A stretch of 45,304 bases of DNA from assembly GCA_017456805.1 (NCBI GenBank), contig JAFTIQ010000039.1, forward strand, positions 1-45,304. The letters are read 5' to 3'. The position numbers and the translations under genes are program-made. This DNA is from Lentisphaeria bacterium (lineage in GTDB: Bacteria > Verrucomicrobiota > Lentisphaeria > Victivallales > UBA1829). Below the pieces are notes generated by a model. It worked only from the letters and a program-made list of their open reading frames with translations. It ran no database searches and was not told where the DNA came from. Below, one piece after another: positions 6,977-45,074 of this stretch. Position 1 is the stretch's first letter; each line of letters begins with the position of its first letter.

Positions 6977-9900
6977 TCAGCGAGCAGCTTTTGTAATGAT
7001 TTCAACTTTCACATCTGTAATTACAGATGTCCCGGATCCGGTTACGGCAATCAGCGGTGCAATCGCACGGAAATTATGAATCTGGGAGAAATCCACAGAG
7101 TACTGCTTTTCAGAAGCCGTGAGAGGGAATTTCTTTTCAATATATCCCCCCCATCCCCAACGCAGAGGACTCCATTTTTTATCATAGCCAAGGACCGGTA
7201 TGACCTGAGCACCATTTTTTCTGCCGTAATTATAACCGTAACATCCGATCAACAGTTCCCCGTTTCCAGATGCCTTGACCGTAATTCGGACAATATCACC
7301 ACGACGCATCGCCGGTTTCGGATAGATTTGTGAACTGGAGAATATGACTCCGGTATGTTTCCCGCCTTTTCCGATAAATTCAACTTTCCCATTGCTTTTC
7401 TTAATGATTCCCTTGGGAGTGCCGCTGAGCGAAGGACTCCAAAAAGCATTCTTTTTATCGTTGATAAAATCCTGAAAATCGCCGGAGGGATCGTGCAGGT
7501 AAACTTCGGAAATCATCACCCAACCCCACTGAGCATCTCCAGCACCATCGGATGCTTTGGAAAATCTTGTGGAACGGGAGGGGATATCAGGCGTAATATT
7601 AGAAATGACAATATGATTTTTTCCGGCTTTCAAGATGCCGCCGGGAACGGTAAAGCCCATCCGGCCCCATTCTTTTTCCGGGAAATCTGCTTTCCCGCTG
7701 TAAATCACTTTTCCATTGACGGTTATTTTATAAAGGCTCTTGCCCGGTTTGTCATCATCAAGCCCTTCAATAGAAAGTAAGGTCGGCGTTTCAATATTCT
7801 GTTTGAGTTCAAGAACAGCGGTAACTTCAGAATTACCAAGAGAAGGCCGGCTTAAAGCAATTCCAACCCGAGCAGGGCAATTATAACTGTATTCTTTCGC
7901 AAAGACATTCCCTTTAAGAGCCGTGGGATAGAAATACCATCCGCCTGGAATGCGTTCTGCACCAGCAATAAACATCTGCTGAGGATTCTTCATGATGTTA
8001 TCAATTTCAGCTTCTTCCCACCATGTCTTTCCTGTATTGGATACTGTTATGCCGGAAACACTCATGATGAAACTTCTGCCGGGAACACCGATCCAAACAG
8101 GTTCCAACTTGTATGAGATCCTTCTGGCAATACTGATAAATTCCTGAAGTCTTCTGATAAAACCTTCAAGTTCCCGGTCAGTCTTGCAGCTGATACGGTT
8201 GTATTTGTTGAGATCTTCTGCAAGATAACGGATCTTTTCAAGTTCAATACGATCCCTGACGGTTTTATCACTTTCTGCTTTAAGAGCTTCATCAAACAAA
8301 GCATATATTTGATCAAACATCTTACGGTCAAGAACCGTTGCGGATGTTGTTGCTCCGCCGAAAATACAAATATGTTTGTTTCCTGAATTTTTGATTTCTT
8401 CATCACTGTGCTTGTATTCAGAGGCAAATTTTTCAACAAGCAGGGTGATTTTATGCATGGCAGGTCCGCCTTTTCCAAAATAAACATGATCAAACTCATG
8501 AACAAGTTTTTCAGGATCTTCCCCCATGTTCCAACGGCCTGTGACAAAGGGAATCGCCGGGCTGTAACCATGCCACACAAAACAATGCAGACTCTGACTT
8601 CCATACTGAGAAAGCATTTCTATCTGCTTCAAGTGATATACCGGACGACGATCCCGGTATGTGGAAAATCCGAAAAAGGCTTTATCTCCGGCAGCAATAC
8701 TCCACTGTTTGATTTCTTCGATCATCGGTCTGTTAAGTTCGCAATCAACATGAAGTGTACAGGGATTGGCTCCCAAATCCAAACAGTAATGCAGCATCAT
8801 TTTGGGGTGACGTTTTGCCGGGGGAGTCCGACGGCTGGAGTAAGCTGATCGGGCCAGATACTGTCCTGGACGAAGACGTGCTGCTGCCCTTTCAAGGATT
8901 TTGTTCATTTCAACGGCAGAATCTATTTTGCTGCAATCCTTGCAATAACAATTCTCAGAACTGTCTCCTGAATTGAAATTGAGAATGGATCTTCCCGGAA
9001 GCTGTGCATTCCCATATTCGACAAGATTCTCAATCATGATCTTTGCGACTTCCGGATTTGAGTAACAGGGATGATTCAATCCGGGATCATAATATACAAC
9101 ACGGTTTCCACCGGAATCCTGCATGAAGTATTCCGGATGATCTTTGAAGTATTTTTCCATTGGAAGCAGAACATTCAGAATATGATAAGGCGCTGCACTG
9201 TACATGTGGAAGGCATCAACCATTGTATTGGCAAAAAACTGGTTGCGATGTACGCCCCCGTTGAAACAGGTCGGATGAGCTTCGCTGGAGATAATACCAA
9301 GTTTCAATTTTACACTGCGGTTACATCCTGCAAGTTGTCTTACAGATTTATCCGCCGGACCTTTTTCGGCAGAAAGTCCGTAATAGGTATAATCGCTGTA
9401 TTTGGTGAAACCCAATTCCTTACGCAGATAATCCATCAGGGCAGGGACAGCAAACAGTAAATCTTTACAAGTAAGGACAATGCCATCCTTATCCACTCTG
9501 ATTTTCCAGGATTCTGACATTTCAGGATTTTCCAGAAGAACCATTGCACCTTGAGTGGGAACAACTTTATCTGCTTGCTCCACTGCTAATGCTTTCCCGG
9601 TAAGTTTATACAACCACCCTTGCCACATGGAAATTCCACGCCGTTCTTTAAAAGATGCATTTTTATTGATCAGGATTTTTGAGAGTGTCCCGCCGGAGGG
9701 CAGGGCAATGGTTCCATTCTCCCCATATTCTGCACTGATATTCAGCTCTGCAAACGTATAAGTGGCTCCCGGCGCCGGATAAAGATCCAATCTTACAGGA
9801 AAATTTCCTTTGAAATCGATCTGTTTCCACTCAGCGGAAGGAGCAAGCTTCAAGCCATTGCTGAACTCTGCTCTGCCTCCAGTCATTTTATATTTCCCCG

Positions 9901-15093: not shown

Positions 15094-15189
15094 CTGAAAG
15101 AAGACCTGTTGGATGGCAATCTCAGAAAAAAGACAAAAAAAATGGAGCCAGCTGTCGGATTTGAACCGACGACCGACGGTTTACAAAAC
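15094..15189 (-). repeat. attL-like copy of the 96-bp repeat with tRNA-Thr 3' half
   Basis: Identical to 24514-24609. Bases 15143-15189 reproduce the tRNA-Thr from CCA end through T-arm, variable loop and the 3' side of the anticodon stem, then diverge at 15190. This is a displaced tRNA 3' half, not a functional tRNA. The 49 bp outside the tRNA are also identical. Confidence 0.85.
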
Positions 15190-15228
15190 GGAAGTCCTCA
15201 GGCTCGAAAAACTTGATTCAGAAGTACT

Positions 15229-15248
15229 TTTTCCACAAATTTTCCACA
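15229..15248. repeat. Two TTTTCCACA boxes one helical turn apart
   Basis: TTTTCCACA at 15229-15237 and 15240-15248, 11 bp apart, between the att copy and the integrase. They could be arm-type integrase or excisionase sites; they also resemble DnaA boxes (TTATCCACA). Confidence 0.4.
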
Positions 15249-15316
15249 GTTCAAAAGTTTTTACAACAATTCACATGGTTTTATGGCATTAAGATCCAAA
15301 AATCAGGTGATTTACA

Positions 15317-16603
15317 ATGGTCAGACAGAAAACGAGGGGAAGCGGTAATTATTACTACCAGTTCATGGTCGATAACAAAAGGTATTGTGGAGTTTGCAAA
15401 GGCTGCACTACCAAAAGAGCTGCAGAAAAGTACGAACGAGAAATCAGAGAAACTATCCTGAAGGCAAGTTCACAGAAAACTGTCAGAGCTTTGATTGAGA
15501 ACTTCAGAAACGAATTGACAGGTGGAACAAAGATCAAGCTTACTGAGGCTTTTGAGTTATCACTGCAGAAGCCAAGAAAACGGATTCCAGCTAAAAAAGC
15601 ACTTTCAAGAAAACGAGAAGCGTTCAAAGACTTTGTGGAGTTCATGCAAGCCACATACCCAGAAGTGGAAGATCTTGCTTCAGTGTTGCCCAGACATGCA
15701 GAAGCCTACATTGCCAGAGTAAGAACATCAGGAAGATTCAACCCGATCATAACCTATGTCAGAGGAGGCATTACCATTACCAGAACTTCAGAGACTTCTA
15801 TCTCTAACAAGACAATCAATGATATTCAGATGATGTGCAAAGAGGTCTTTGATCTGTTGTCTCGTGATGCAGGGATTCTTGACAATCCCTTTAACATGAA
15901 GAAGCTGGAAAAGGATGCAACTGAACGGGAAGCTTTCTCCGAACAAGAAATATGTCTGATCCGTGACAATCTGGATTCTTTTACCAGACCTCTTTTTACT
16001 CTTGCTATGATGACAGCTTTAAGGGAGGGTGATATCTGCACTCTGAAATGGGATAATATTGACTTTCAGGAAATGGTTATCAGGAAGAAGATGAATAAGA
16101 CAAGGCATATTGTGGAAATTCCTATTGCTAACGATCTCTGCGGCTATCTCAGGAGTCTTCAGGAAGGGAACCACTCTGAATATGTTCTGCCAGTTCATGC
16201 CAAAATGTATTTGGAGAATCCTTCAGGTGTATCATACAGAGTAAAGAACTTCCTTGAGAGGATCGGGATTCAGACAACTCGCAAACCGGAAGGTCGTTCA
16301 AGAGCTATTTCTGTTAAGGATCTTCACAGTTGCAGACACACCTTTTGTTATTATGCTGGCATCAGAGGGATTCCTCTTGCAGTAGTTCAGTCTATTGTCG
16401 GACACATGTCTCCTGAAATGACAAAGCACTATTCTGCTCATGCTACTTTGGAGGAGAAGAGGAAGAACATCGGCTTAATGTCAGACTTCATGGGAGGGAC
16501 TGCCATGTTATCAGCAACAGAACCTGAACGAGTAGAGCTGCACAAACTTGCAGATACTTTACCGTTGGAGCAAATCAAGAAGTTACTGAGTCAAATATCA
16601 TAA
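15317..16603 (+). CDS. Tyrosine recombinase / integrase
   Basis: 428 residues. The N-terminal 100 residues are an arm-binding-type domain (RGSGNYYYQFMVDNKRY, lysine-rich). About 100-200 is a core-binding SAM-like domain. The catalytic domain shows the Arg box TALREGDICTLKW, the box II DLHSCRHTFCYYAG (H-x-x-R) and the final VGHMSPEMTKHYSAHA (H and nucleophile Tyr). It catalyses site-specific insertion and excision between the flanking repeats. CAGGTGA lies 7 nt before the ATG. All catalytic residues seem intact, so it could still be active. Confidence 0.95.
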   Translation: MVRQKTRGSGNYYYQFMVDNKRYCGVCKGCTTKRAAEKYEREIRETILKASSQKTVRALIENFRNELTGGTKIKLTEAFELSLQKPRKRIPAKKALSRKREAFKDFVEFMQATYPEVEDLASVLPRHAEAYIARVRTSGRFNPIITYVRGGITITRTSETSISNKTINDIQMMCKEVFDLLSRDAGILDNPFNMKKLEKDATEREAFSEQEICLIRDNLDSFTRPLFTLAMMTALREGDICTLKWDNIDFQEMVIRKKMNKTRHIVEIPIANDLCGYLRSLQEGNHSEYVLPVHAKMYLENPSGVSYRVKNFLERIGIQTTRKPEGRSRAISVKDLHSCRHTFCYYAGIRGIPLAVVQSIVGHMSPEMTKHYSAHATLEEKRKNIGLMSDFMGGTAMLSATEPERVELHKLADTLPLEQIKKLLSQIS

Positions 16604-16629
16604 TACGGACGCTACGGACGTATTTTTTC
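16602..16629 (+). terminator. Terminator of the integrase gene
   Basis: AATACG (16602-16607) pairs with CGTATT (16619-16624), followed by a run of T (16623-16628). The stem overlaps the integrase stop codon. It coincides with the left arm of the inverted repeat described separately. Confidence 0.55.
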
Positions 16630-16712
16630 TAGAGAGAACTATATAGAGAAAGTATTATATATAGCACTATAATATATATAAAGGATAAGCAAATTCATGT
16701 CCGTAACGTCCG
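16606..16712. repeat. 15-bp inverted repeat flanking an AT-rich core
   Basis: CGGACGCTACGGACG (16606-16620) and, inverted, TGTCCGTAACGTCCG (16698-16712) match at 13 of 15 positions. The 77 bp between them are almost pure A+T with short palindromes such as CTATATAG and TATATATA. Each arm itself holds two CGGAC units. The region lies between convergent genes. Confidence 0.45.
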
Positions 16713-16730
16713 GGGACTTCACTACCAGCT

Positions 16731-16763
16731 AAAAAAAAACGGGGGGATTTTATGTCCCCCCGG
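16731..16763 (-). terminator. Strong terminator of the DUF932 operon
   Basis: On the minus strand a GGGGGGA/TCCCCCC stem with a 7-nt loop is followed by nine T residues (16739-16731). It ends transcription of the minus-strand element genes 16819-18789. Confidence 0.85.
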
Positions 16764-16818
16764 ATGCTGGTCTTTGTATGGAGCGCATCAACTTCCATAC
16801 GAATGGCAACTTCGAGGT

Positions 16819-17553
16819 CTATTTCCATAGTTCAGGACGATTGCCATCCAATCCGAAGGCTCTGTTCAAGCTCAGATATGTCTGATCCAACCGCTGAGGA
16901 GTGTACTTCTTCACTGTCTCAGTGATTGCATTCATCAGGCTGTATCTTGTTGGTTCCAGAAACTCTTCATGCTGAGGATTCTTGAACTCCTTGAATACAG
17001 GAATAATGTCACTGCTGTTAATAACACCCATCTCTGCAGCTCTCACAATTCTGCATCTGGCATCATCATCGTTCTTCAGATAAATGATCTTCAAGTCTTC
17101 AACAACAGTTTCTGTGATAAGGAATTCATTTTCAAGACTTTCAATAGCAACATCAATAAGCTCTGTCAGTTCCAAACCACTGGTGTGCCGCTTCTTGATA
17201 ACAGTCGACCCTCCAAAGGCAAGGTTACTGCAAACACAGACACAGATACCGGCACTCAAGCCAACAGAGAAACTCTTGTCATGGCTATTCCTGATTCCAA
17301 TCGCACGCTTGTGATCAGGTGATCTGCTGTTGTTCAACTCGATCACGCCAAACATCTTCTGTCCCTCTCTTGCAAGACCATACTGCTCTTTCGTGATCTG
17401 CCATTTGTGAGCTTCGATCACTTTGGTTACAGAGTTGATTACATCAATGTGAGGAACCGGCTTCCAACTGGCTGTGGATTGAGGTGTCTGAATCAAAGCG
17501 ACTTCATCACGGCTGACAAACTGCCCGCCACCACCCATACAGAGATTATTCAT
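16819..17553 (-). CDS. DUF932 phage/plasmid-like protein
   Basis: 244 residues. It matches the DUF932 family of phage and plasmid proteins: VPHIDVINSVTKVIEAHKWQI, the GIRNSHDKSFSVGLSAGICVCVCSNLAFGG block, and the helical C-terminus ending in a NRAFGLDGN stretch. Function unknown in the family; it is often beside recombination genes. AAAGGAG sits 6 nt before the ATG at 17553, which makes an 8-nt overlap with the nuclease gene; the ATG at 17607 is buried in that gene and less likely. Last gene of the minus-strand DNA-metabolism set. Confidence 0.8.
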   Translation of the reverse strand: MNNLCMGGGGQFVSRDEVALIQTPQSTASWKPVPHIDVINSVTKVIEAHKWQITKEQYGLAREGQKMFGVIELNNSRSPDHKRAIGIRNSHDKSFSVGLSAGICVCVCSNLAFGGSTVIKKRHTSGLELTELIDVAIESLENEFLITETVVEDLKIIYLKNDDDARCRIVRAAEMGVINSSDIIPVFKEFKNPQHEEFLEPTRYSLMNAITETVKKYTPQRLDQTYLSLNRAFGLDGNRPELWK

Positions 17554-18340
17554 TGCAAACTCCTTTCTGGCAAACATTTCTGCATTGCTTTTTGTAAGGA
17601 CACTCATTGCAGTTCATACAGTTCTCATTTGGGTAGAACAAGCCTGACTGGATAGACTTCTCAATCTGCTGTGCCAGAAAGATAAATTTCTGAAGATCGT
17701 CTTCAGTTCTGACCGTGTAGTAACTGCTTGCTGTGGGCTGTTTCGCTTTGGTGAAAACATCGAACCTGAACAGAGGGATTCTTCCATAAAGCTGCTGATA
17801 AGCATAGCAAAAGGTCGTTGCCTGAAGATCCCAGTCTGCTTTGCCTGTCTGCCACTTGCTGGAGCTGGTTTTCCAATCGCAGACAGTCTCTTCAGCATCA
17901 TTCCTGACAATGAGATCGAACTCGCCAATCAGAGGTTTTGACAAGCCCGGTACTTCCACTGAAAAGGCTTCAGCAACAGAAACATCCACATAATCATCCT
18001 GCCAGTTTTCCAGAGCGACTTCCAGCATGTCCTGTCCTTTTACAAGACAACTTTCAAAGTCCTCTCCCTGTTTATAGGTGAGGTTCTGGCAAACTTCTGT
18101 TTCCCCCTTGAAATACACAAAGAAATCATCCTTTGCATCGTCAATGGAGAACGTTGTACCCTTGCGAGCTCTTTCAGAGAGAACCGCATGGAAAGCCCTC
18201 CCAAAGGGAAGAGCAGAACAAGTGTGTTCAGGTTCAGCGTGTTCGACATATCGCAGATAATACTTCATAGGGCATTGCAAATAGCACTGAAATGCGGAGT
18301 ATGACCAATGCGGATTCTTCTTGAGTTCCAGAATATTCAT
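17546..18340 (-). CDS. PD-(D/E)XK nuclease, RecB/Cas4-like
   Basis: 264 residues of the PDDEXK_1 family. Seen: WSYSAFQCYLQCPMKYYLRYV at the start (first cysteine), GRAFHAVL (His), GEFDLIV (Asp), CDWKTSS (the D-x-K core), QATTFCYAY (Q-x-x-x-Y), and a C-terminal CMNCNECPYKKQC cluster likely to hold an Fe-S cluster with the N-terminal Cys. Such proteins are single-strand exonucleases in phages and mobile elements. The ATG overlaps the upstream gene's stop (TAATG). Confidence 0.87.
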   Translation of the reverse strand: MNILELKKNPHWSYSAFQCYLQCPMKYYLRYVEHAEPEHTCSALPFGRAFHAVLSERARKGTTFSIDDAKDDFFVYFKGETEVCQNLTYKQGEDFESCLVKGQDMLEVALENWQDDYVDVSVAEAFSVEVPGLSKPLIGEFDLIVRNDAEETVCDWKTSSSKWQTGKADWDLQATTFCYAYQQLYGRIPLFRFDVFTKAKQPTASSYYTVRTEDDLQKFIFLAQQIEKSIQSGLFYPNENCMNCNECPYKKQCRNVCQKGVCNE

Positions 18341-18789
18341 TATGCCACCGCCTTCCATTCGTTGATCAGATCAGAACACTGGCGTCTGGTCAGATTGTGG
18401 ACATCTGCCACGTTGCACTTTGCAGCGATCTGCTGAGGTGTCCAGCCAAGATTGCGACCCAAATCAAGCAGGTACTTGATCTGTTTCGGACTTGCTGCGA
18501 CTTCTTTCTGGGAGTGGTTGTTTGCAGGACGACTGACAGGCTGGCTGACCGTCTGGTTGCTTGTTACAGGCTGTGCAGCAGGCTCAGGAAGCTGTCTGGC
18601 AGGTCTTCCATGGAGTTCTGCTTCGACACTTTCACGAACCATTGCAAAGGTTTCATGGATCCTGTTCTGAAGCTGTTCCTGATTCAAACCATCTGGGAGT
18701 TCCACTTCGATACTGGCGTGGTAGGACTGTGAAGAGTATTCGCCCTCTGCAGGGACTTTTTTGCTGTAAGATGCGTTGAGTTTGAGCAT
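18340..18789 (-). CDS. Hypothetical element protein, possible ssDNA/recombination accessory
   Basis: 149 residues. Residues 1-60 are a beta-rich segment (SYHASIEVELPDG), 65-95 a Pro/Gln/Ser-rich linker, and 100-149 a small helical domain (SPKQIKYLLDLGRNLGWTPQQIAAKCNV...LTRRQCSDLINEWK). That last pattern is common at the C-termini of phage recombination proteins. I do not recognise the whole protein. AAAGGAG precedes the ATG. First gene of the three-gene minus-strand set. Confidence 0.65.
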   Translation of the reverse strand: MLKLNASYSKKVPAEGEYSSQSYHASIEVELPDGLNQEQLQNRIHETFAMVRESVEAELHGRPARQLPEPAAQPVTSNQTVSQPVSRPANNHSQKEVAASPKQIKYLLDLGRNLGWTPQQIAAKCNVADVHNLTRRQCSDLINEWKAVA

Positions 18790-18816
18790 TTTTCGCTCCT
18801 TTCTTGATTTTCCTCC

Positions 18817-18844
18817 TTGACATATACTGTATGTATGCTATATT
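18817..18844 (+). promoter_or_regulatory. Promoter and likely BrnA operator of brnTA
   Basis: TTGACA (18817-18822), 16-nt spacer, TATATT (18839-18844). The spacer contains an imperfect palindrome around ATACTGTAT, where a ribbon-helix-helix antitoxin such as BrnA could bind. BrnT begins 33 nt downstream. Confidence 0.6.
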
Positions 18845-18877
18845 TACAATGAACAACAAAACATACAGGATTGTCAA

Positions 18878-19159
18878 ATGGAATTTGTATGGGATGAAAA
18901 TAAAGCAGCAATCAATCTGCAAAAACATGGTGTCAGCTTTCAGGAGGCATCAACGGTGTTTGATGATTACGATGCGCTGTGCATCTTTGATCCGGATCAT
19001 TCCGAAGAGGAAGATCGGTTCATCATGCTTGGTATGAGTGCTGCTGTCCGGGTGCTGGTTGTGTGCCATTGCTACCGTGAAAACGATGAGCAAATCCGCA
19101 TAATCTCCGCCAGAAAAGCTACAAAGAACGAAACTGCAACTTACAACGGGAGGAAATGA
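18878..19159 (+). CDS. brnT: BrnT family toxin
   Basis: 93 residues with the BrnT signature MEFVWDENKAAINLQKHGVSFQEASTVFDD at the start, RFIMLG in the middle and IRIISARKATKNE at the end. BrnT is a RelE-fold ribonuclease that blocks translation until bound by BrnA. The AGGA before the ATG is modest. The gene overlaps brnA by 4 nt (ATGA). Toxin-antitoxin modules stabilise mobile elements, fitting its place here. Confidence 0.93.
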   Translation: MEFVWDENKAAINLQKHGVSFQEASTVFDDYDALCIFDPDHSEEEDRFIMLGMSAAVRVLVVCHCYRENDEQIRIISARKATKNETATYNGRK

Positions 19160-19374
19160 CTATGCGTAAAGAGTACGATTTCAGCAAAGCAGTGAAGAAT
19201 CCGTATGTCCGCAAACCGGCGAAAACACCCGTTACGATCCGGCTTGATGCGGCTACTGTGGATTACTTCAAGACTTTATCAGAAGAAGCAAACCTGCCGT
19301 ATCAGACGCTTATCAATTCCTATTTGACGGATTGTGCAAAGCGTAAGCTGAAACCACAGATTGCTTGGCAGTAA
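19156..19374 (+). CDS. brnA: BrnA family antitoxin
   Basis: 72 residues. The N-terminal part binds the toxin (YDFSKAVKNPYVRKPAK) and the C-terminal part is a ribbon-helix-helix DNA-binding domain (VTIRLDAATVDYFKTLSEEANLPYQTLINSYL). GGGAGG precedes the ATG, which overlaps the brnT stop. Expected to neutralise BrnT and repress the shared promoter. Confidence 0.9.
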   Translation: MTMRKEYDFSKAVKNPYVRKPAKTPVTIRLDAATVDYFKTLSEEANLPYQTLINSYLTDCAKRKLKPQIAWQ

Positions 19375-19377
19375 TGC

Positions 19378-20526
19378 TTAAATTGCCATTCTGATTCGTT
19401 CGATTGCCCTGCGAGCCTGAACGAACTCGCGTTCTTTCTGCTTCTGGGCAATCTGGGCTTCTTTGACTTTGCGAGCCAGTTGAGAAGCTTCATCTGCAAT
19501 AGTCTTAATCTTTAGCTTGAACGCTTCAATGCTGATGCTGAGCTCATCCAGCGGATTTGTTTCAGGTTCCTGATTCTGGGCGGGAGTCTGCACAGGAGCA
19601 GATACGATTTTCATTCCGTGGTTCATTTCCATTTTGGGTTCCTCCTTATTGGTATTTTCTTCTGTTTCTTTAACGGTTTGCGATTCTGTTTTGGGCTGAA
19701 AGAGCGGCATGGTGATGTAGATACCGCGTCCACCTTCAGCTTGTATCGGTGCGTGATTGCTGCTGCTCTTGACTGTGGAATGCCCCAGCTGAAAGATCCT
19801 TTGAAGCATGTTCCTGTTGATCGTGAAACTGTAAGAGCTCCAATCTCCTGAGAACTCTGCTTCAATCATCAGCTCAAGATCGTTCTGACAGAGAAGCAGC
19901 TTTCCTTCGTTCTGCGACACTTTCACAGCATTGTGCGGCAAGAGCTCAGGAAGCGACTTCAGGAAGTTCAAAGCTATGACTGTCTGAGTTTCATTCAGCT
20001 TGAACTCATGTGTCAGAACATCCTCTTTTGGCATGATCTGCTTCCAGTTGGGGAAATCTCCTGTTAAGGCTTTCCCTCTCCAAGACCACTTTCCAACATC
20101 AATTCTGAAGAAAACACTGCCGTTATCAGTCCAGCGATAAATTCTGCCTGAGTCTGCTGCTTTCGATTGGATCAAAACAAACGGTAATAGCACCGTAGTC
20201 GATTCAAAATCAAGATCAAGAGGAAAGTTCAGAAGTTCCTGACCGTTAGTAACAGTCAAGCCGCTTCGACTGATATTTATACCATGCAGAATGCGTCTTG
20301 GTTCGTTGCGATTAACGATCGGAGCTGCATCAGTGAACATTGCAACAACATTTTCAGGAAGCTCACAACTGGTTGCAGAATCGTTCATTTCGATAACAGG
20401 CCATTCGCTTTCATTCTGAAGCTCCAAATAGCACTCTCCAACCTTGAGCATTCTGTTTTCCCATGCAATTTCCACTGTTTTAGCACGACAGGATTTCAAA
20501 GCATCCTTAAAATCATCAAACAGCAC
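19378..20526 (-). CDS. DNA polymerase III beta (sliding clamp)-like protein, N-terminally truncated
   Basis: Reads like a phage/plasmid DnaN homologue: VLFDDFKDALKSC, the FPLDLDFESTTVLLPFVL region and INRNMLQRIFQLG follow clamp order. A linker and a coiled-coil tail (about 320-382, rich in K, E, Q) are extra. The visible start is only a GTG with no ribosome site. In-frame clamp-like sequence (TGAETVGTINAVV) continues upstream to about 20563, where a TAG appears. About the first 50 residues of a clamp are missing, so the gene has lost its 5' end at the junction near 20,560. It is probably not functional as it stands. Confidence 0.65.
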   Translation of the reverse strand: MLFDDFKDALKSCRAKTVEIAWENRMLKVGECYLELQNESEWPVIEMNDSATSCELPENVVAMFTDAAPIVNRNEPRRILHGINISRSGLTVTNGQELLNFPLDLDFESTTVLLPFVLIQSKAADSGRIYRWTDNGSVFFRIDVGKWSWRGKALTGDFPNWKQIMPKEDVLTHEFKLNETQTVIALNFLKSLPELLPHNAVKVSQNEGKLLLCQNDLELMIEAEFSGDWSSYSFTINRNMLQRIFQLGHSTVKSSSNHAPIQAEGGRGIYITMPLFQPKTESQTVKETEENTNKEEPKMEMNHGMKIVSAPVQTPAQNQEPETNPLDELSISIEAFKLKIKTIADEASQLARKVKEAQIAQKQKEREFVQARRAIERIRMAI

Positions 20527-20539
20527 GACTGCATTGATC

Positions 20540-20585
20540 GTACCAACTGTCTCTGCGCCTGTACACTATTGAATTTTTCTTCGTG
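20540..20585. other. Rearrangement junction between two truncated genes
   Basis: The minus-strand clamp gene and the plus-strand DUF4091 gene meet head to head here. Both run out of family-like sequence between about 20559 and 20568, and no promoter, ribosome site or start region is left for either. This marks a deletion or illegitimate recombination point, or an assembly join. Confidence 0.6.
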
Positions 20586-22517
20586 CGTGATAGAAAACTT
20601 GTTCAGTTCGCAGTCGGTGCAGGTGGTGCGATGTTTTCTACCAATAAAGTCCCTTGGAAAGCATCTTGCAGTATAGAAGAGAAACAATGGAGTGTAACCG
20701 CAGAGATTCCATTCAAATCTATTGGCGGAAAACTTGAAAATGGCGATACTATCCTATTTAATATTGGACGTCATCGTAAGGCTGCAAAACAATTTTTGAC
20801 CTGGTCTCCGCTGAAGGATAGTTTTCACGAGCAGGAACGTTTTTGCGTTCTTGTGATGGGAGATTATGGTGCGGCATTTCAGAAGAAATACGGGAAAAAG
20901 CTTGCAGTATCAAGCCGTTCGGCTTACGAAAAAGCCTGTGCTGATGAGGAAAACGCACGTTTGAAAGAAAAATATGCGAAGCTTTCAACCCGGAAATTCG
21001 CTGTTGCTCCAGTTTCAGCAGTCAGTAATTTTGCAATTCCTTTTATACCGGATGAAGTCTTTGATCTGGTTGAAAAAATTGATCTTAATGCTGCGATAAA
21101 TGAATTCAAATCTCTCCCGATTGCAATAATGAATCTGACAGATAAGCCTGCGGATTACCGGGTCATTCTTGAAACGGATGAACACAGATATTTCGGTTCA
21201 TTCGGTTTGAAAGGATTCCCGGCGGAAAATATCACTCAGCGTTTTGCTGTCCGGTTCAAGGATAACGATAAAGATGCTGGAAGTTTGCGTTATGATCCGC
21301 TTCCGAAGATTGGGGAAGCTTGTACTATCAGCATTCCGCCCAAAGAGGCCGGTCTTGTCTGGTTCGATTTCAATACAACTGATGTCAAGCCGGGTATTTA
21401 CAAAGGCAGACTGCGGGTGATTCCACTTTCTGAACCTGCAAGTTGGACGATAATCAACAATCAGTATCACAACAGAAAATACACTGGTGAAATGCAGGAT
21501 ATTCCTGTTACTTTGAATGTCAGAAATGTGATTCTTCCGAAAGATCCCGCGATTCCGATGAACTTTTTTCAATGGGCGACAGCGGAGGGGATATTCCGTG
21601 GAATGGCGGAGTGCGGCACTCGGGAATTCGGACTTGACCCGTGGGGATTCAAGTTCAAAAAAATGGGTGCTGGAAAACTGGAATTGGATTTTTCAAATCC
21701 TGAATTGAAAGGTTTGGAAAATTCACTGCGCTCTCAGCTCGCATGGGCAAAAAAATATAATATCAAGCCTCAATTTTTCATCGGATTCAGCTCTTACAAG
21801 GTTTGTAAACAGCTGTATGGCGCAGATTGCTGGGCTGATTGGATTCGGTGTGTAAAGAAATTCATGAATACAAACGGCGTTGCTGATTCCGATTACATTA
21901 TTGAAACATGGGATGAGCCGGAAGATAAGTTTATGGCAGCGATCCTTGATTCTCATAAACAGGCAAAGGCTGCAGAGCCGACAGTTCGTCTGATGGTCAC
22001 GCTTGCCTTCTGGAAACCAACTGTCGCAAATATTAAGGCTATGAAAGGATACATTGACGGTTGGTGTTTATGGGGAACAGTATATTTTGAGTCTCCATAT
22101 AAAGAAATTTTTGAAGACTATAAAAAGAGTGGTGTATATATCAGTCACTACATGTGTACTACATCAATGAGAGAACATCTTTCACGATATTATCGTCGTA
22201 TCGCATGGACAGCCGCCTATTATAATTTGGATGCAGCACATATGTTTTGGTTTATAGATAACTATGGCGGTCAGGGCGCATCAGACTGGAAAGTTGCCAC
22301 ACGCGGCGGAATTTATTACAAGTCTTTTGACAATTATATTCCGTCAATCCGTTACATGGCAATTCGTGAGGGTGTTACTGACATCAAGTACATATCTCTT
22401 GTAAAAGATCCTGCAAAAGCACGTGCATATCTGGAACGGATTTATGTAACCAATACTCATGATCCAAAAGAACCTGAACGTGTACGCGAAGAGATCTTGA
22501 AAGCTCTCGAAAAATAA
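20565..22517 (+). pseudogene. DUF4091 glycosidase-like protein, 5' end missing
   Basis: The open frame from a GTG at 20583 gives 644 residues, but recognisable sequence (TIEFFFV) begins at about 20565 before any start codon. The first 70 residues are the rear half of a CBM9-like domain (WSVTAEIPFKSIGG, FNIGRHR, TWSPL). Residues about 150-280 are a beta-sandwich, and 290-640 a barrel-like DUF4091 region (LDPWGFKF, IETWDEPEDKF, DGWCLWG, AAHMFWFIDNYGG, YMAIREGVTDIKYI). E in WDEPED is a plausible acid. Signal peptide and N-terminal domains are gone. A stop at 20535 closes the frame upstream. Followed by a hairpin and the GH27 gene. Confidence 0.75.
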
Positions 22518-22546
22518 AGAGCAATACACGATTATTGTCATTTACA

Positions 22547-22588
22547 GCCTTGCAATTTGGCAAAAACAGAGCGGCTTAATTGCAAGGC
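22547..22588 (+). terminator. 11-bp stem hairpin between DUF4091 and GH27 genes
   Basis: GCCTTGCAATT (22547-22557) pairs perfectly with AATTGCAAGGC (22578-22588), 20-nt loop, then AGGTTTTATG. Either a terminator with a weak T-run or a leader structure of the GH27 gene. Confidence 0.5.
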
Positions 22589-22647
22589 AGGTTTTATGAT
22601 AACAAAAATTTACAAAAGATTGAAAATCTTCAGAAAGGACTTTTCAG

Positions 22648-24138
22648 ATGCAATCGCTCTTAAACCCTATTATTGAAATAGCTCACCGTCTGCCTCATGA
22701 CGCAGGTGCACCTGTAATCAATGGAGCTTCTGTGTTTGCTATGACGCCGGGAAAGTTTGCCCATTATACACTTCCTGTGCGAGGTGTACGCCCCCTTGCA
22801 TTTTCTATAAAGGGAACTTTACCGGAAGGGGTCTCTTTTGACAGTACTACCGGATGTTTCAGTGGTAGGGCAGCGACAGCAGGAGAATATCAGATTTCGA
22901 TTACGGTCAGTAACGCAGAAGGCGAGTCAACACGAGATTTAACTCTTATTGTTCGTGAGGGATTCCTCGGAGCTGCGCCGCTAATGGGATGGACCTCATG
23001 GAACGCTTATGAATGGCGTATAGATCAGGAGAAGATTCTTAAAAATGCAGAACTGCTCTATTCGCTGGGACTCTCTGCCAGAGGTTATTCTTATGTTAAT
23101 ATTGATTCTTGCTGGCAAGGAAATCGTACCGGAGATGGCCCTGGACTTCATCCGAACTCCCGTTTTTCAGACATGCCTGGAATGGTAGAAAAAATACACA
23201 AGCTGGGACTGAAAGCTGGGATTTATTCTACACCCATGGTAATTGCATGGGGATCAACTCAACAGGAAATCTTTGCAGGAAGCACCGGATATCCCCTTGA
23301 TCCGGAATCATTCCATCAATATTTCGGTGGTTGCGGACAGACATCTTTTGAGGATGATGATGCTAAATTGTGGGCAGGTTGGGGATTTGATTATTTAAAA
23401 TATGATTGGCCAATGTGCGATATTCCTCATACAAAACGGATGCGGGAGGCATTAGATAAGACCGGACGTGATATGATTCTTTCTCTTACCACAAATTGTA
23501 AAGTGGAAGATGTCGTTGAATATCGGAAATATGCTCAGAGTTATCGTAATAACATTGATACACGCGATAGATGGAAATCAATAGAGGCGAATATTTATTC
23601 TGCGGATCCCTGGATTGATAAGACCGGCCCCGGAGGATGGTTTGACCTCGATATGCTCGCGGTCGGAATAATGACGATTGATAGAAATCGGAAAGATATA
23701 CAGATGCCTGAAGATCGGAATTGCCTGACAAAAGATGAAGCAATCACACATTTTTCTGTATGGTCTATCTTGGGAAGTCCTCTGCAATTGAGTTGTCAGT
23801 TGGATAAAATTGATGAGTTTACACTTGATCTTGTTTCCAATGAAGAAATAATTGCTGTAAATCAGGATATCACTTCATTGCCGGAACTTTGGCATAATGA
23901 AGCCATCACAGAGGATAGTAAAACGATCCGTAAAATTCGCATTTACAGAAAAACCGTTTCGGATGGAGGACAAGTCTGCTGTTTTGTCAATTTTGCTGAT
24001 GAAGCTGCAGAAGTTGTATTTTCGCCGGGCAAACGTGTTCTGGTTCGAGACCTCTGGAGTAGACGTGACCTTGGAAGCACAGAAAATGTGAAAATGGTTC
24101 TGCCTCCCCATGGTTCCCGAATGTTGAAATTTTCATAA
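22648..24138 (+). CDS. GH27 alpha-galactosidase-like protein with N-terminal Ig-like domain
   Basis: 496 residues. Residues 25-105 are a putative-Ig (He_PIG) domain (PLAFSIKGTLPEGVSFDSTTGCFSGRA). The GH27 barrel starts MGWTSWNAYEWRI (about 115), then GYSYVNIDSCWQG, LGLKAGIYSTP, DYLKYDWPMCD (nucleophile Asp), YRNNIDTRDRW (acid/base Asp region), GGWFDLDMLAVG and SILGSPLQLSCQLD. It ends in a beta-sandwich. Family role: retaining hydrolysis of alpha-galactosides or related alpha-linked sugars. I see no signal peptide. AGAAAGGAC precedes the ATG. It is cargo inside the tRNA-Thr element and carries its own terminator. Confidence 0.92.
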   Translation: MQSLLNPIIEIAHRLPHDAGAPVINGASVFAMTPGKFAHYTLPVRGVRPLAFSIKGTLPEGVSFDSTTGCFSGRAATAGEYQISITVSNAEGESTRDLTLIVREGFLGAAPLMGWTSWNAYEWRIDQEKILKNAELLYSLGLSARGYSYVNIDSCWQGNRTGDGPGLHPNSRFSDMPGMVEKIHKLGLKAGIYSTPMVIAWGSTQQEIFAGSTGYPLDPESFHQYFGGCGQTSFEDDDAKLWAGWGFDYLKYDWPMCDIPHTKRMREALDKTGRDMILSLTTNCKVEDVVEYRKYAQSYRNNIDTRDRWKSIEANIYSADPWIDKTGPGGWFDLDMLAVGIMTIDRNRKDIQMPEDRNCLTKDEAITHFSVWSILGSPLQLSCQLDKIDEFTLDLVSNEEIIAVNQDITSLPELWHNEAITEDSKTIRKIRIYRKTVSDGGQVCCFVNFADEAAEVVFSPGKRVLVRDLWSRRDLGSTENVKMVLPPHGSRMLKFS

Positions 24139-24150
24139 TCACTGATAGAA

Positions 24151-24193
24151 AGGCTTTTAAGGGACAAAATCATGCTGTTAAAAGCCTTTTTTA
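24151..24193 (+). terminator. Terminator of the GH27 gene
   Basis: AGGCTTTTAA (24151-24160) and TTAAAAGCCT (24178-24187) form a 10-bp stem, followed by TTTTTATT. Confidence 0.88.
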
Positions 24194-24513
24194 TTCTACA
24201 GGATAAATCACCTCTGGCATCTCATCCTGCTATACCACCACAGCGTCTTTTGTCTTAGAGCGTTTCTGTTAATAATTTGAGACATTTTGTCTCAACATAG
24301 AATAGAACTGCTATTAGTGTGTCACACTCTATCGATGATTGTAAATAGATCTTTGAATATTGATTCCTGCTGCTAATAGCATGAATCAAGAGCATCGATT
24401 AGAAAATACTTTCTTCTTTTTGATCGAAAATACATTAGCAGCAAGTATAGTACCTCCTGGCAGTGTGAAAAAACACAGAAAAAGAGGGCTGATTAAGGGG
24501 TATCAGAAAAAAT
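24194..24513. other. Structured non-coding right end of the element
   Basis: No gene. It contains TGAGAC-ATTTT-GTCTCA (24278-24294), AGTGTG-T-CACACT (24316-24328), a nested hairpin TGATTC...GAATCA (24361-24388), and a 10-bp inverted pair TGCTGCTAAT/ATTAGCAGCA (24368-24377 and 24434-24443). Possibly recombination arm sites or regulatory RNA. Confidence 0.45.
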
Positions 24514-24609
24514 CTGAAAGAAGACCTGTTGGATGGCAATCTCAGAAAAAAGACAAAAAAAATGGAGCCAGCTGTCGGATTTGAACCGACGACCGACGGT
24601 TTACAAAAC
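24514..24609 (-). repeat. attR-like copy of the 96-bp repeat
   Basis: Identical to 15094-15189. It covers the 3' half of the intact tRNA-Thr and 49 bp of its 3' flank. Confidence 0.85.
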
Positions 24610-24637
24610 CGTAGCTCTACCACTGAGCTAAGCTGGC
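24563..24637 (-). tRNA. tRNA-Thr (anticodon TGT)
   Basis: 75 nt on the minus strand. The acceptor stem GCCAGCT pairs with AGCTGGC, and the discriminator T is followed by an encoded CCA. D-arm TAGCTCAGTGGTAGAGCTA, anticodon loop TTTGTAA within an ACGGT/ACCGT stem (anticodon TGT), T-arm GTCGGTTCGAATCCGAC. The 5' half is chromosomal; the 3' half is shared with the element repeat and so was restored at integration. Confidence 0.96.
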
Positions 24638-24802: not shown

Positions 24803-26122
24803 ATGAAGAAAACTTTCGTTTTAGACACCAACGTTTTGCTCCACAGTGCAAAATCTATTGAAAACTTCCAGGATAATACAGTCGTCATACCAATGGCGGT
24901 GATCGAAGAACTGGATAAATTCAAAAAGAACCAGAATGAACTAGGTAGGAATGCACGTCATGTCATCAGAAGACTGGATGAATTACGGCAAAAAGGGTCT
25001 CTTTATAAAGGGGTTCCTTTGGATAATTCGGCAGATCCTGACAAATGCGGAAAACTTCAGATTATCACAGGAATCGGGGAAGTCGTGGACGGTATGGATA
25101 TGTCCATTGCCGACAACAGGATCCTGCGGGTCGCGTATATGCTGCGGAGAAATGATCCGAATGTTATTCTGGTTTCCAAAGATATCAATTTGCGTTTGAA
25201 GGCAGATGCTTTGGGACTGCAGGTCGCTGATTTTGAATTCCAGAAAGTGAATTCTGATGAGTTGTATTCCGGAGTGACAGAACTCCCGGTAACTGAAAAA
25301 GAAATCAACCAGTTTTACCAGAATGGGTCCATGTTTCCGCCGGGAGACAGCCATCTGGAACCCAATGAATTTGTGGTGCTTCAGGACAGTGTCAATCCGA
25401 AAAAATCCGCATTTGGATGGATCAAAAATGGAAAAATCGTTCCGCTCCCGGATTCTACCGACAGGGTTTGGAATATATCTCCGAGGAGCCGGGAGCAGCG
25501 GATGGCTCTGGCTTTGCTGATGGATCCGGAAATTCAGATCGTGACATTAGTCGGAAGAGCCGGTTCCGGGAAGACATTGCTTGCCCTGGCTGCAGGATTG
25601 GAAAATGTTTTGCAGAAAGGTTATTATGATAAATTGCTTGTTTCCAGACCTATCATCCCCATGGGAAATGATCTTGGATTTCTGCCCGGTTCAAAGGATG
25701 AAAAACTTGATATCTGGATGCAGCCGATTTACGACAATCTTGATTTCCTGCTGAAAAGCGAAAAGAAGGATGTTCATTCAAGCAGACGTCAGGTCGAAGA
25801 GCTGAAGCGGTCCAGAAAACTGGAACTGGAAGCATTGACTTACATCAGAGGACGGAGTATTCCGCATCAATACCTGATCGTGGACGAAGCTCAGAACCTG
25901 ACGCCCCATGAAATCAAGACGATTGTCAGCAGGGCAGGGGAAGGGACTAAAGTCATTCTGACAGGAGATCCTTATCAGATCGACAATGCATATCTGGATT
26001 CATCCAGTAATGGTTTGTCTTACGCGGCGGAGCGTTTGAAATCGCTGGCAATTCACGGGCATATCACGCTGCAAAAGAGCGAAAGAAGCCCTCTGGCTTC
26101 TGCGGCTTCTGAATATCTCTAA
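24803..26122 (+). CDS. PIN-PhoH fusion ATPase (YlaK/PhoH2-like)
   Basis: 439 residues. Residues 1-150 are a PIN RNase domain with the acidic residues in FVLDTNVLL, VIEELDKF, SIADNRIL and VSKDINLRLKA. Residues about 230-439 are a PhoH ATPase: Walker A GRAGSGKT, then SRPIIPMGNDLGFLPG, Walker B YLIVDEAQN and LTGDPYQID. PhoH2-type proteins unwind and cleave RNA. Strong ribosome site, own promoter and terminator: a single-gene unit beside tRNA-Thr. Confidence 0.93.
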   Translation: MKKTFVLDTNVLLHSAKSIENFQDNTVVIPMAVIEELDKFKKNQNELGRNARHVIRRLDELRQKGSLYKGVPLDNSADPDKCGKLQIITGIGEVVDGMDMSIADNRILRVAYMLRRNDPNVILVSKDINLRLKADALGLQVADFEFQKVNSDELYSGVTELPVTEKEINQFYQNGSMFPPGDSHLEPNEFVVLQDSVNPKKSAFGWIKNGKIVPLPDSTDRVWNISPRSREQRMALALLMDPEIQIVTLVGRAGSGKTLLALAAGLENVLQKGYYDKLLVSRPIIPMGNDLGFLPGSKDEKLDIWMQPIYDNLDFLLKSEKKDVHSSRRQVEELKRSRKLELEALTYIRGRSIPHQYLIVDEAQNLTPHEIKTIVSRAGEGTKVILTGDPYQIDNAYLDSSSNGLSYAAERLKSLAIHGHITLQKSERSPLASAASEYL

Positions 26123-44907: not shown

Positions 44908-45074
44908 AGAGGTAATTTCAAAAGTCCGGCAAAATTTGGCTGAAAAAAGATTGTTGATGAGTTGGAAATGGTAGTTTGAGCGTGGCTACCCACAGGGTAC
45001 CCACCGAAAACGCTCCATTTGCAGATCGCAACAAGAATTTTCTGCCATTTTTGAAGACTTTTGAAATTGCCTCT
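44908..45074. repeat. 167-nt fold-back sequence
   Basis: The outer arms 44908-44926 and 45056-45074 match at 18 of 19 positions. Pairing continues inward with gaps, to GAGCGT (44978-44983)/ACGCTC (45010-45015) and TACCC-ACA-GGGTA (44987-44999) at the tip. It would form a long, nearly continuous hairpin on either strand. No coding function seen. Confidence 0.6.

Follow-up and report, generated by a model that had tools for sequence, protein, structure and literature searches.

A probable composite of an integrase-end remnant and tRNA-Thr-adjacent DNA in a Lentisphaeria bacterium

A tRNA-Thr(TGT) gene is the only tRNA gene detected by ARAGORN in a 45,304-nucleotide stretch of DNA from a Lentisphaeria bacterium (contig JAFTIQ010000039.1 of assembly GCA_017456805.1; hereafter, the window). 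A perfect 96-bp direct repeat (15094-15189 and 24514-24609), which includes part of this gene, bounds a 9.4 kb segment with a tyrosine integrase gene, a toxin-antitoxin pair and an alpha-galactosidase-like gene. A preliminary description of the window had proposed that this segment is an integrative element in tRNA-Thr with glycosidase genes as cargo. Here, we analyze the segment and compare it with related loci in other Lentisphaeria genomes, which are designated by genome (G), contig (C) or locus (L) handles. Features are collected in Table 1.

Table 1. Features of the window, in order of position, followed by the five sister elements for which both ends are available
Feature	Position or length	Strand	Basis or remark
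Native-type tRNA-Thr downstream flank, left copy (non-tRNA part of the repeat)	15094-15142		~100 nt resemble uninserted tRNA-Thr flank of G010, 0/300 shuffles
Displaced 3' 47 nt of tRNA-Thr(TGT), integrase-side attachment fragment	15143-15189	-	
Arm-type direct repeat TTTTCCACAAATTTTCCACAG, integrase side	15229-15249		Single copy in window
Tyrosine integrase (int), 428 aa	15317-16603	+	Pfam PF00589, PHROG integrase, 92% to G010
Imperfect hairpin between 3' ends of int and DUF932 genes	16604-16720		z -3.8
DUF932 protein	16819-17607	-	Domain scan; 97% aa to G010
PD-(D/E)XK exonuclease-like protein	17546-18358	-	Domain scan, PHROG; 97-98% aa to G010
Conserved 149-aa module protein	18340-18789	-	98% aa to G010; 54-57% in G034, G004
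BrnT toxin	18878-19159	+	Domain scan
BrnA antitoxin	19156-19374	+	Domain scan
Sliding-clamp homologue lacking ~56-68 N-terminal residues	19378-20563 (ORF called 19378-20526)	-	PHROG 947
Join of two 5'-less genes	20563-20568		Clamp and CBM9-type homology limits
5'-truncated CBM9-type gene	20566-22517 (ORF called 20583-22517, 628 aa)	+	
GH27 alpha-galactosidase-like protein	22648-24138	+	Pfam Melibiase_2, Melibiase_C; next best relative 76%
Native-type tRNA-Thr downstream flank, right copy	24514-24562		
Intact tRNA-Thr(TGT)	24563-24637	-	ARAGORN
phoH, chromosomal neighbour	24803-26122	+	Adjoins tRNA-Thr in G009 and G010 too
G010 element, tRNA-Phe	23.7 kb		Both ends
G004 element, tRNA-Arg(CCT)	23.8 kb		Both ends
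G034 element, tRNA-Arg(CCG)	13.8 kb		Both ends
G003 element, tRNA-Thr(TGT)	8.0 kb		Both ends
G016 element, tRNA-Arg(TCT)	3.5 kb		Both ends
aa, amino acids; ORF, open reading frame; z, folding score.

The repeat consists of the final 47 nt of the tRNA gene and 49 nt of downstream sequence, and the start-to-start offset of 9420 bp described earlier is confirmed. A looser match around the same two copies extends to 101 nt at 98% identity. Allowing up to three mismatches, we found only these two sites for a 20-nt word taken from the repeat's tRNA end (0/100 shuffles). The intact tRNA (ARAGORN) and the integrase (Pfam) lie at opposite ends, as had been noted; the locus has an intact tRNA gene, a 3' fragment of it downstream in the same orientation, and a tyrosine integrase gene between the two, as expected of a tRNA island. 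The empty site predicted previously, in which 15093 would be joined to sequence left of 24514, has to be redrawn: sequence right of 24609, on the tRNA side, would be joined to 15189 and what lies left of it.

On the integrase side, domain scans bear out the integrase, DUF932, PD-(D/E)XK nuclease, BrnT and BrnA assignments. Residues R236, H337, R340, H363 and Y372, read off the integrase sequence, are all present, and we take them to be catalytic, as in the tyrosine recombinase family. The integrase and the adjoining module (DUF932, PD-(D/E)XK, 149-aa and clamp genes) are homologous to those of the sister elements with gene order preserved, in the orientation found in G004. The clamp gene scores below the NCBIfam dnan cut-off, and its full-length relatives have 450 aa and are 93% identical.

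The clamp gene marks the limit of this homology. Similarity to the module extends as far as ~20563, and homology to CBM9-type proteins begins at 20566-20568, so that two genes, each without its 5' end, meet head to head at one join. CBM9-type proteins of relatives have a full length of 923 aa (best identity 84%), of which the window copy lacks the first 274 residues. This ORF had been described as one of two glycosidase genes; a Pfam scan of 20583-22517 gave no match, and the gene is a 5'-truncated CBM9-type gene with no glycosidase domain, the G010 homologue matching CBM_4_9 with CBM9_1 below cut-off. The other of the two is confirmed as a GH27 gene. When the region 20527-24562 was compared with 71 ORFs of the G010, G009 and G004 stretches, some of which may not be genes and the last of which extends beyond the element, nothing scored better than E 0.02 apart from the clamp tail. 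No primase, helicase or polymerase genes, such as are seen in G010, G009, G004 and G003, were matched in this region.

The tRNA-side end differs from that of complete elements. In all five relatives with both ends (G010, G004, G003, G034 and G016), a direct word of 18-26 nt is common to the two ends (0/200 shuffles each); we presume that direct repeats of this sort are integrase arm sites, as in other tyrosine recombinases. The longest direct word shared by the window ends is 8 nt, a length reached in 154/200 shuffles, and the arm at 15229-15249 is unique in the 45 kb when up to three mismatches are allowed; arm repeats at both ends, a property of the family, are thus not seen here. The shared-word test replaced a generic arm regex that had missed the plus-strand arms of G016; regex-based counts, less clear-cut than this test, likewise gave no arm on the window's tRNA side. 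Integrase loci for which both ends were not obtained (G005, G007, two in G008, G019, G032, G035, G040, G047, G059, G097, G106 and G111) do not enter the arm count.

The repeat itself is also unusual. Past the tRNA, the exact repeat continues for 5, 6 and 6 nt in G010, G003 and G034 and falls short by 27 and 10 nt in G004 and G016; in the window it continues for 49 nt. The uninserted tRNA-Thr flank of G010 is similar to both flanks of the window (over 94-100 nt, 0/300 shuffles each), as is that of G009 (0/300 and 2/300), and the element-side flank of G003 resembles neither (107/300 and 94/300). When the first 40 nt are omitted, likeness persists for the left flank to G010 (0/300) and G009 (6/300) and for the right flank to G010 (4/300). 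Outside the 49 nt that they have in common, the window flanks show only weak mutual likeness (40/300). As judged by these resemblances, the window has two flanks of native type: one adjoins the displaced fragment, as expected, and the other adjoins the intact tRNA, in place of the expected element DNA.

The two halves also diverge unequally from their relatives. Identity to G010 at fourfold sites is 77% for int (n=150), 78% for DUF932 (95), 76% for PD-(D/E)XK (98) and 71% for the clamp gene (130); it is 44% for the CBM9-type gene (216) and 50% for phoH (157). The corresponding values for G009 are 86% (DUF932), 78% (PD-(D/E)XK), 69% (clamp), 42% (CBM9-type) and 47% (phoH). These values indicate that the module has passed between species, whereas the CBM9-type gene, with a divergence on a par with that of phoH, looks resident. 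BrnT is identical to its G010 counterpart at all 35 fourfold sites (100%). The brnTA pair (18878-19374) differs from that of G010 at 1 of 497 nt (496 identical), adjoins module sequence that differs by ~7% and clamp sequence that differs by ~16%, and has no match in the G009 module; it appears to be a separate, very recent cassette that arrived later than the module.

Taken together, we consider it probable that the 9.4 kb between the repeats is a composite, in which an integrase-end remnant is joined to tRNA-Thr-adjacent DNA containing the GH27 gene and a broken CBM9-type gene, most likely through recombination with an uninserted allele. As the start of the repeat and the family pattern suggest, an element of the family would first have entered tRNA-Thr via the anticodon region. 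Its tRNA-side part would then have been swapped for tRNA-Thr-adjacent DNA of an uninserted allele from another strain, through homologous crossing-over at phoH/tRNA combined with illegitimate recombination at 20563-20568. What was retained would be the integrase end of the element (15190 to ~20563). Lost with its other part would be the arm on the tRNA side and replication genes of the kind known from relatives; the stretch gained (~20566-24562) would come from beside tRNA-Thr and have brought its native flank along. An integrase on a one-armed remnant is expected to excise it poorly, and the remnant may be hardly mobile by itself. The sugar genes look like neighbours rather than cargo because the integrase half is fused to ordinary-looking DNA by the tRNA. 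The earlier proposal of an integrative element in tRNA-Thr is right in that a tRNA-targeting tyrosine integrase lies by a tRNA-Thr fragment, a layout also found in G003, and in that the module is shared between species; it needs revision in that the element does not look whole.

Several observations weigh against this composite. No allele with GH27 next to an uninterrupted tRNA-Thr was found, and GH27 had no match at 1e-20 in six of the seven near relatives searched. Searches of G001, G009 and G010 did not recover the AraC-type left neighbour of the window, and hence no exact empty site was encountered. Neither window flank is matched by the tRNA-Thr flanks from G011, G013 and G014 (26-176/300 shuffles). 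With the first 40 nt omitted, the right flank is unlike that of G009 (234/300), and beyond these 40 nt its native character would derive from the G010 comparison only. A fourfold-site identity near 45-50% approaches saturation and gives no date for the CBM9-type gene. The listing for the truncated clamp omits the 124173-base contig mentioned below, for which we have no explanation. Among relatives, only G004 has the module in the window's orientation to int; it is reversed in G010, G034 and the incomplete G059, so that a parent of G010 layout, unlike one of G004 layout, would need a module inversion as well. At three loci (L105, L108 and L248, i.e., G008:C67, the distant G008:C35 and G111:C304), the geometry is opposite, with the intact tRNA on the integrase side (tRNA-Asn in G008:C67, also L085; tRNA-Arg(CCG) in G111:C304). 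Finally, carbohydrate genes are indeed present in the sister element of G010.

The main competing explanation, to which we assign a low but appreciable likelihood, is that two elements once stood in tandem at tRNA-Thr, and that a deletion fused the interior of a tRNA-proximal second unit, with GH27 and the CBM9-type gene, to the clamp gene of the older element. Tandem arrays at a single tRNA gene are known, as the Islander paper reports (PMC4383910), and a single deletion would account for the absent arm, the absent replication genes and both truncations. The second unit would, however, require an attP with a native-type tRNA-Thr flank, and neither a third copy of the tRNA word nor another integrase-like match was seen.

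Less likely still is a single element, as first proposed, with GH27 and the CBM9-type gene as its own cargo and later damage near the tRNA. All the genes do fall between the two repeats, and a sister element has GH38 cargo. The missing tRNA-side arm, the native-type flank on that side, the 5'-less genes at the join and the resident-level divergence of the CBM9-type gene argue against it, and the claim of glycosidase cargo on the window element is not sustained. An assembly chimera of two metagenome strains is very improbable: although the nearest relatives are metagenome-assembled genomes (MAGs) and two 5'-less genes meet at the join, the join lies in no repeat, and the GH27 and truncated CBM9-type proteins are each found on two contigs (the longest of 124173 bases) and the truncated clamp on another of 6107 bases, which counts against a one-off assembly error, even if the window's own contig may be among them and the samples may not be independent.

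Among 80 loci listed, the phoH gene next to the window tRNA is closest (88%) to that of a Lentisphaeria MAG from sheep colon; phoH of the near relatives G001, G009 and G010 is 85-88% identical. Sites in relatives were located by search with the tRNA DNA. In G009 and G010, tRNA-Thr(TGT) adjoins phoH, with no second tRNA match listed on that contig and no insertion seen, and the genes further downstream of tRNA-Thr differ among the window, G009 and G010. No tRNA-Thr adjoined phoH in the loci examined of phoH relatives L001-L007 and L034. Elsewhere in the window, a palindromic repeat of ~165 bp (44908-45074) is 97% identical to a G010 copy and 85-91% to G009 copies, higher than the 77% for the phoH region, and resembles miniature inverted-repeat transposable elements.

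A search with the integrase at a threshold of E 1e-90 gave 41 matches, spread over 33 of the 246 genomes; exonuclease relatives occur at 1e-30 in 60 of the 246. Thirty of the 41 matches were inspected with a T-arm pattern for an outward-pointing tRNA 3' half by the integrase, which was present at 12 loci and absent at 18; inward-pointing tRNAs were sought in part of the latter, which include the loci of G008:C67 and G111:C304 named above. In the window and all five sister elements, the intact tRNA lies at the end opposite the integrase. The DUF932-PD-(D/E)XK-149aa-clamp module is present in G010, G004 and G034, and a search for it in G003 and G016 gave no match. In G009, the module adjoins tRNA-Phe, with no brnTA match, and no integrase match on the stretch examined. 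Primase genes are found in G010, G004 and G003; G004 also encodes a DNA polymerase (PHROG-17), and G009 a PIF1 helicase that has a DNA homologue in G010. Of the sister-element ORFs scanned, which were part of the total, none was recognized as encoding a terminase, capsid or relaxase; one protein of G034 gave structural-type PHROG matches, yet Pfam identifies it as GDPD.

Other genes vary among these elements. In G010, they encode a GntR-GH38 fusion, a ceramidase-like protein and a DegT protein. The fusion (L224:14581-17214, G010:C100:34581-37214), on the tRNA-Phe element, is a single ORF in which an N-terminal GntR DNA-binding domain precedes a GH38 alpha-mannosidase. The idea of carbohydrate cargo, unsupported in the window, thus survives elsewhere in the family. 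A SNF2-type helicase of G009 (best match PADLOC HKD+Snf2) and a dynamin-like protein of G004 (weak LeoBC match) look like defence-type cargo, and G034 has a reverse transcriptase and the GDPD protein. Tentatively, these data suggest an integrative element family of Lentisphaeria's own, in which a close integrase line may enter different tRNA genes (Thr-TGT and Phe-GAA), with a clamp/exonuclease/primase/helicase or polymerase module and no transfer genes seen, and which may cross species and gain defence-type or carbohydrate cargo.

Additional observations concern the sister loci. The integrases at tRNA-Thr(TGT) (window) and tRNA-Phe(GAA) (L167) are 92% identical, most differences falling within residues 1-190 and close to the C-terminus, and the anticodon stems of both tRNAs read ACGG..CCGT. 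A 114-aa excisionase-like protein is encoded in the tRNA-Arg(CCG) element of G034 (L228:17050-17394). In G001:C123 (L106:15650-15925), an N-terminal integrase fragment of 87-90 residues (72-74%), ~370 bp before tRNA-His, is probably a further remnant of the family. Hairpin repeats of ~120 nt lie between the element modules of G010 (L224:1300-1420, 7048-7168 and 18709-18831, one inverted to the other two; z -5.8 to -9.2 on folding), and others are at L226:4119-4212 and 9289-9416. Such repeats could be a source of module inversion relative to the integrase. They were considered as inversion points for the window and set aside: they flank modules in G010 and G009, but the window hairpin is unmatched by them.

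No close known phage was found, and no close plasmid by the PD-(D/E)XK test: this protein matched 1 of 50,697 phage and 2 of 72,556 plasmid annotated records, all below 30% identity, and the integrase matched 170 phage records, all below 60% (phage records only). Viral contigs yielded one integrase relative (44%), none for DUF932 or PD-(D/E)XK, and none for the flank or junction word. In the literature searched, no paper on this Lentisphaeria element family was found.

Polysaccharide loci borne on integrative and conjugative elements in gut Bacteroidetes are one comparison class. The window is similar in having sugar genes near mobile DNA; it differs in that no conjugation genes were seen and in that, if it is a composite, the sugar genes lie outside the remnant. 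P4-type satellites and primase-bearing integrated plasmids are another comparison class. The G003 primase scores above the NCBIfam P4-family cut-off and the G004 primase below it, whereas the window has no primase. With the Lentisphaeria sister elements, the window has in common the integrase family (all five) and the module (G010, G004 and G034); these elements differ in having both arms, primase (G010, G004 and G003), polymerase (G004) and other cargo. They offer a mobile family in which movement of defence and sugar genes can be tested in the little-studied Lentisphaeria of gut and rumen MAGs. Compared with Islander-type genomic islands at tRNA genes, with their anticodon-centred attP, the window is alike in its tyrosine integrase, its intact tRNA, the correctly oriented displaced 3' fragment and a repeat that likewise starts in the anticodon region; it differs in the lack of a tRNA-side arm, the native-type flank inside the repeat and the fused interior. 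A tRNA gene, its fragment and an integrase are thus insufficient to call all DNA between them cargo, and it is end-specific arm repeats, together with the native flank, that distinguish a whole element from a fused remnant.

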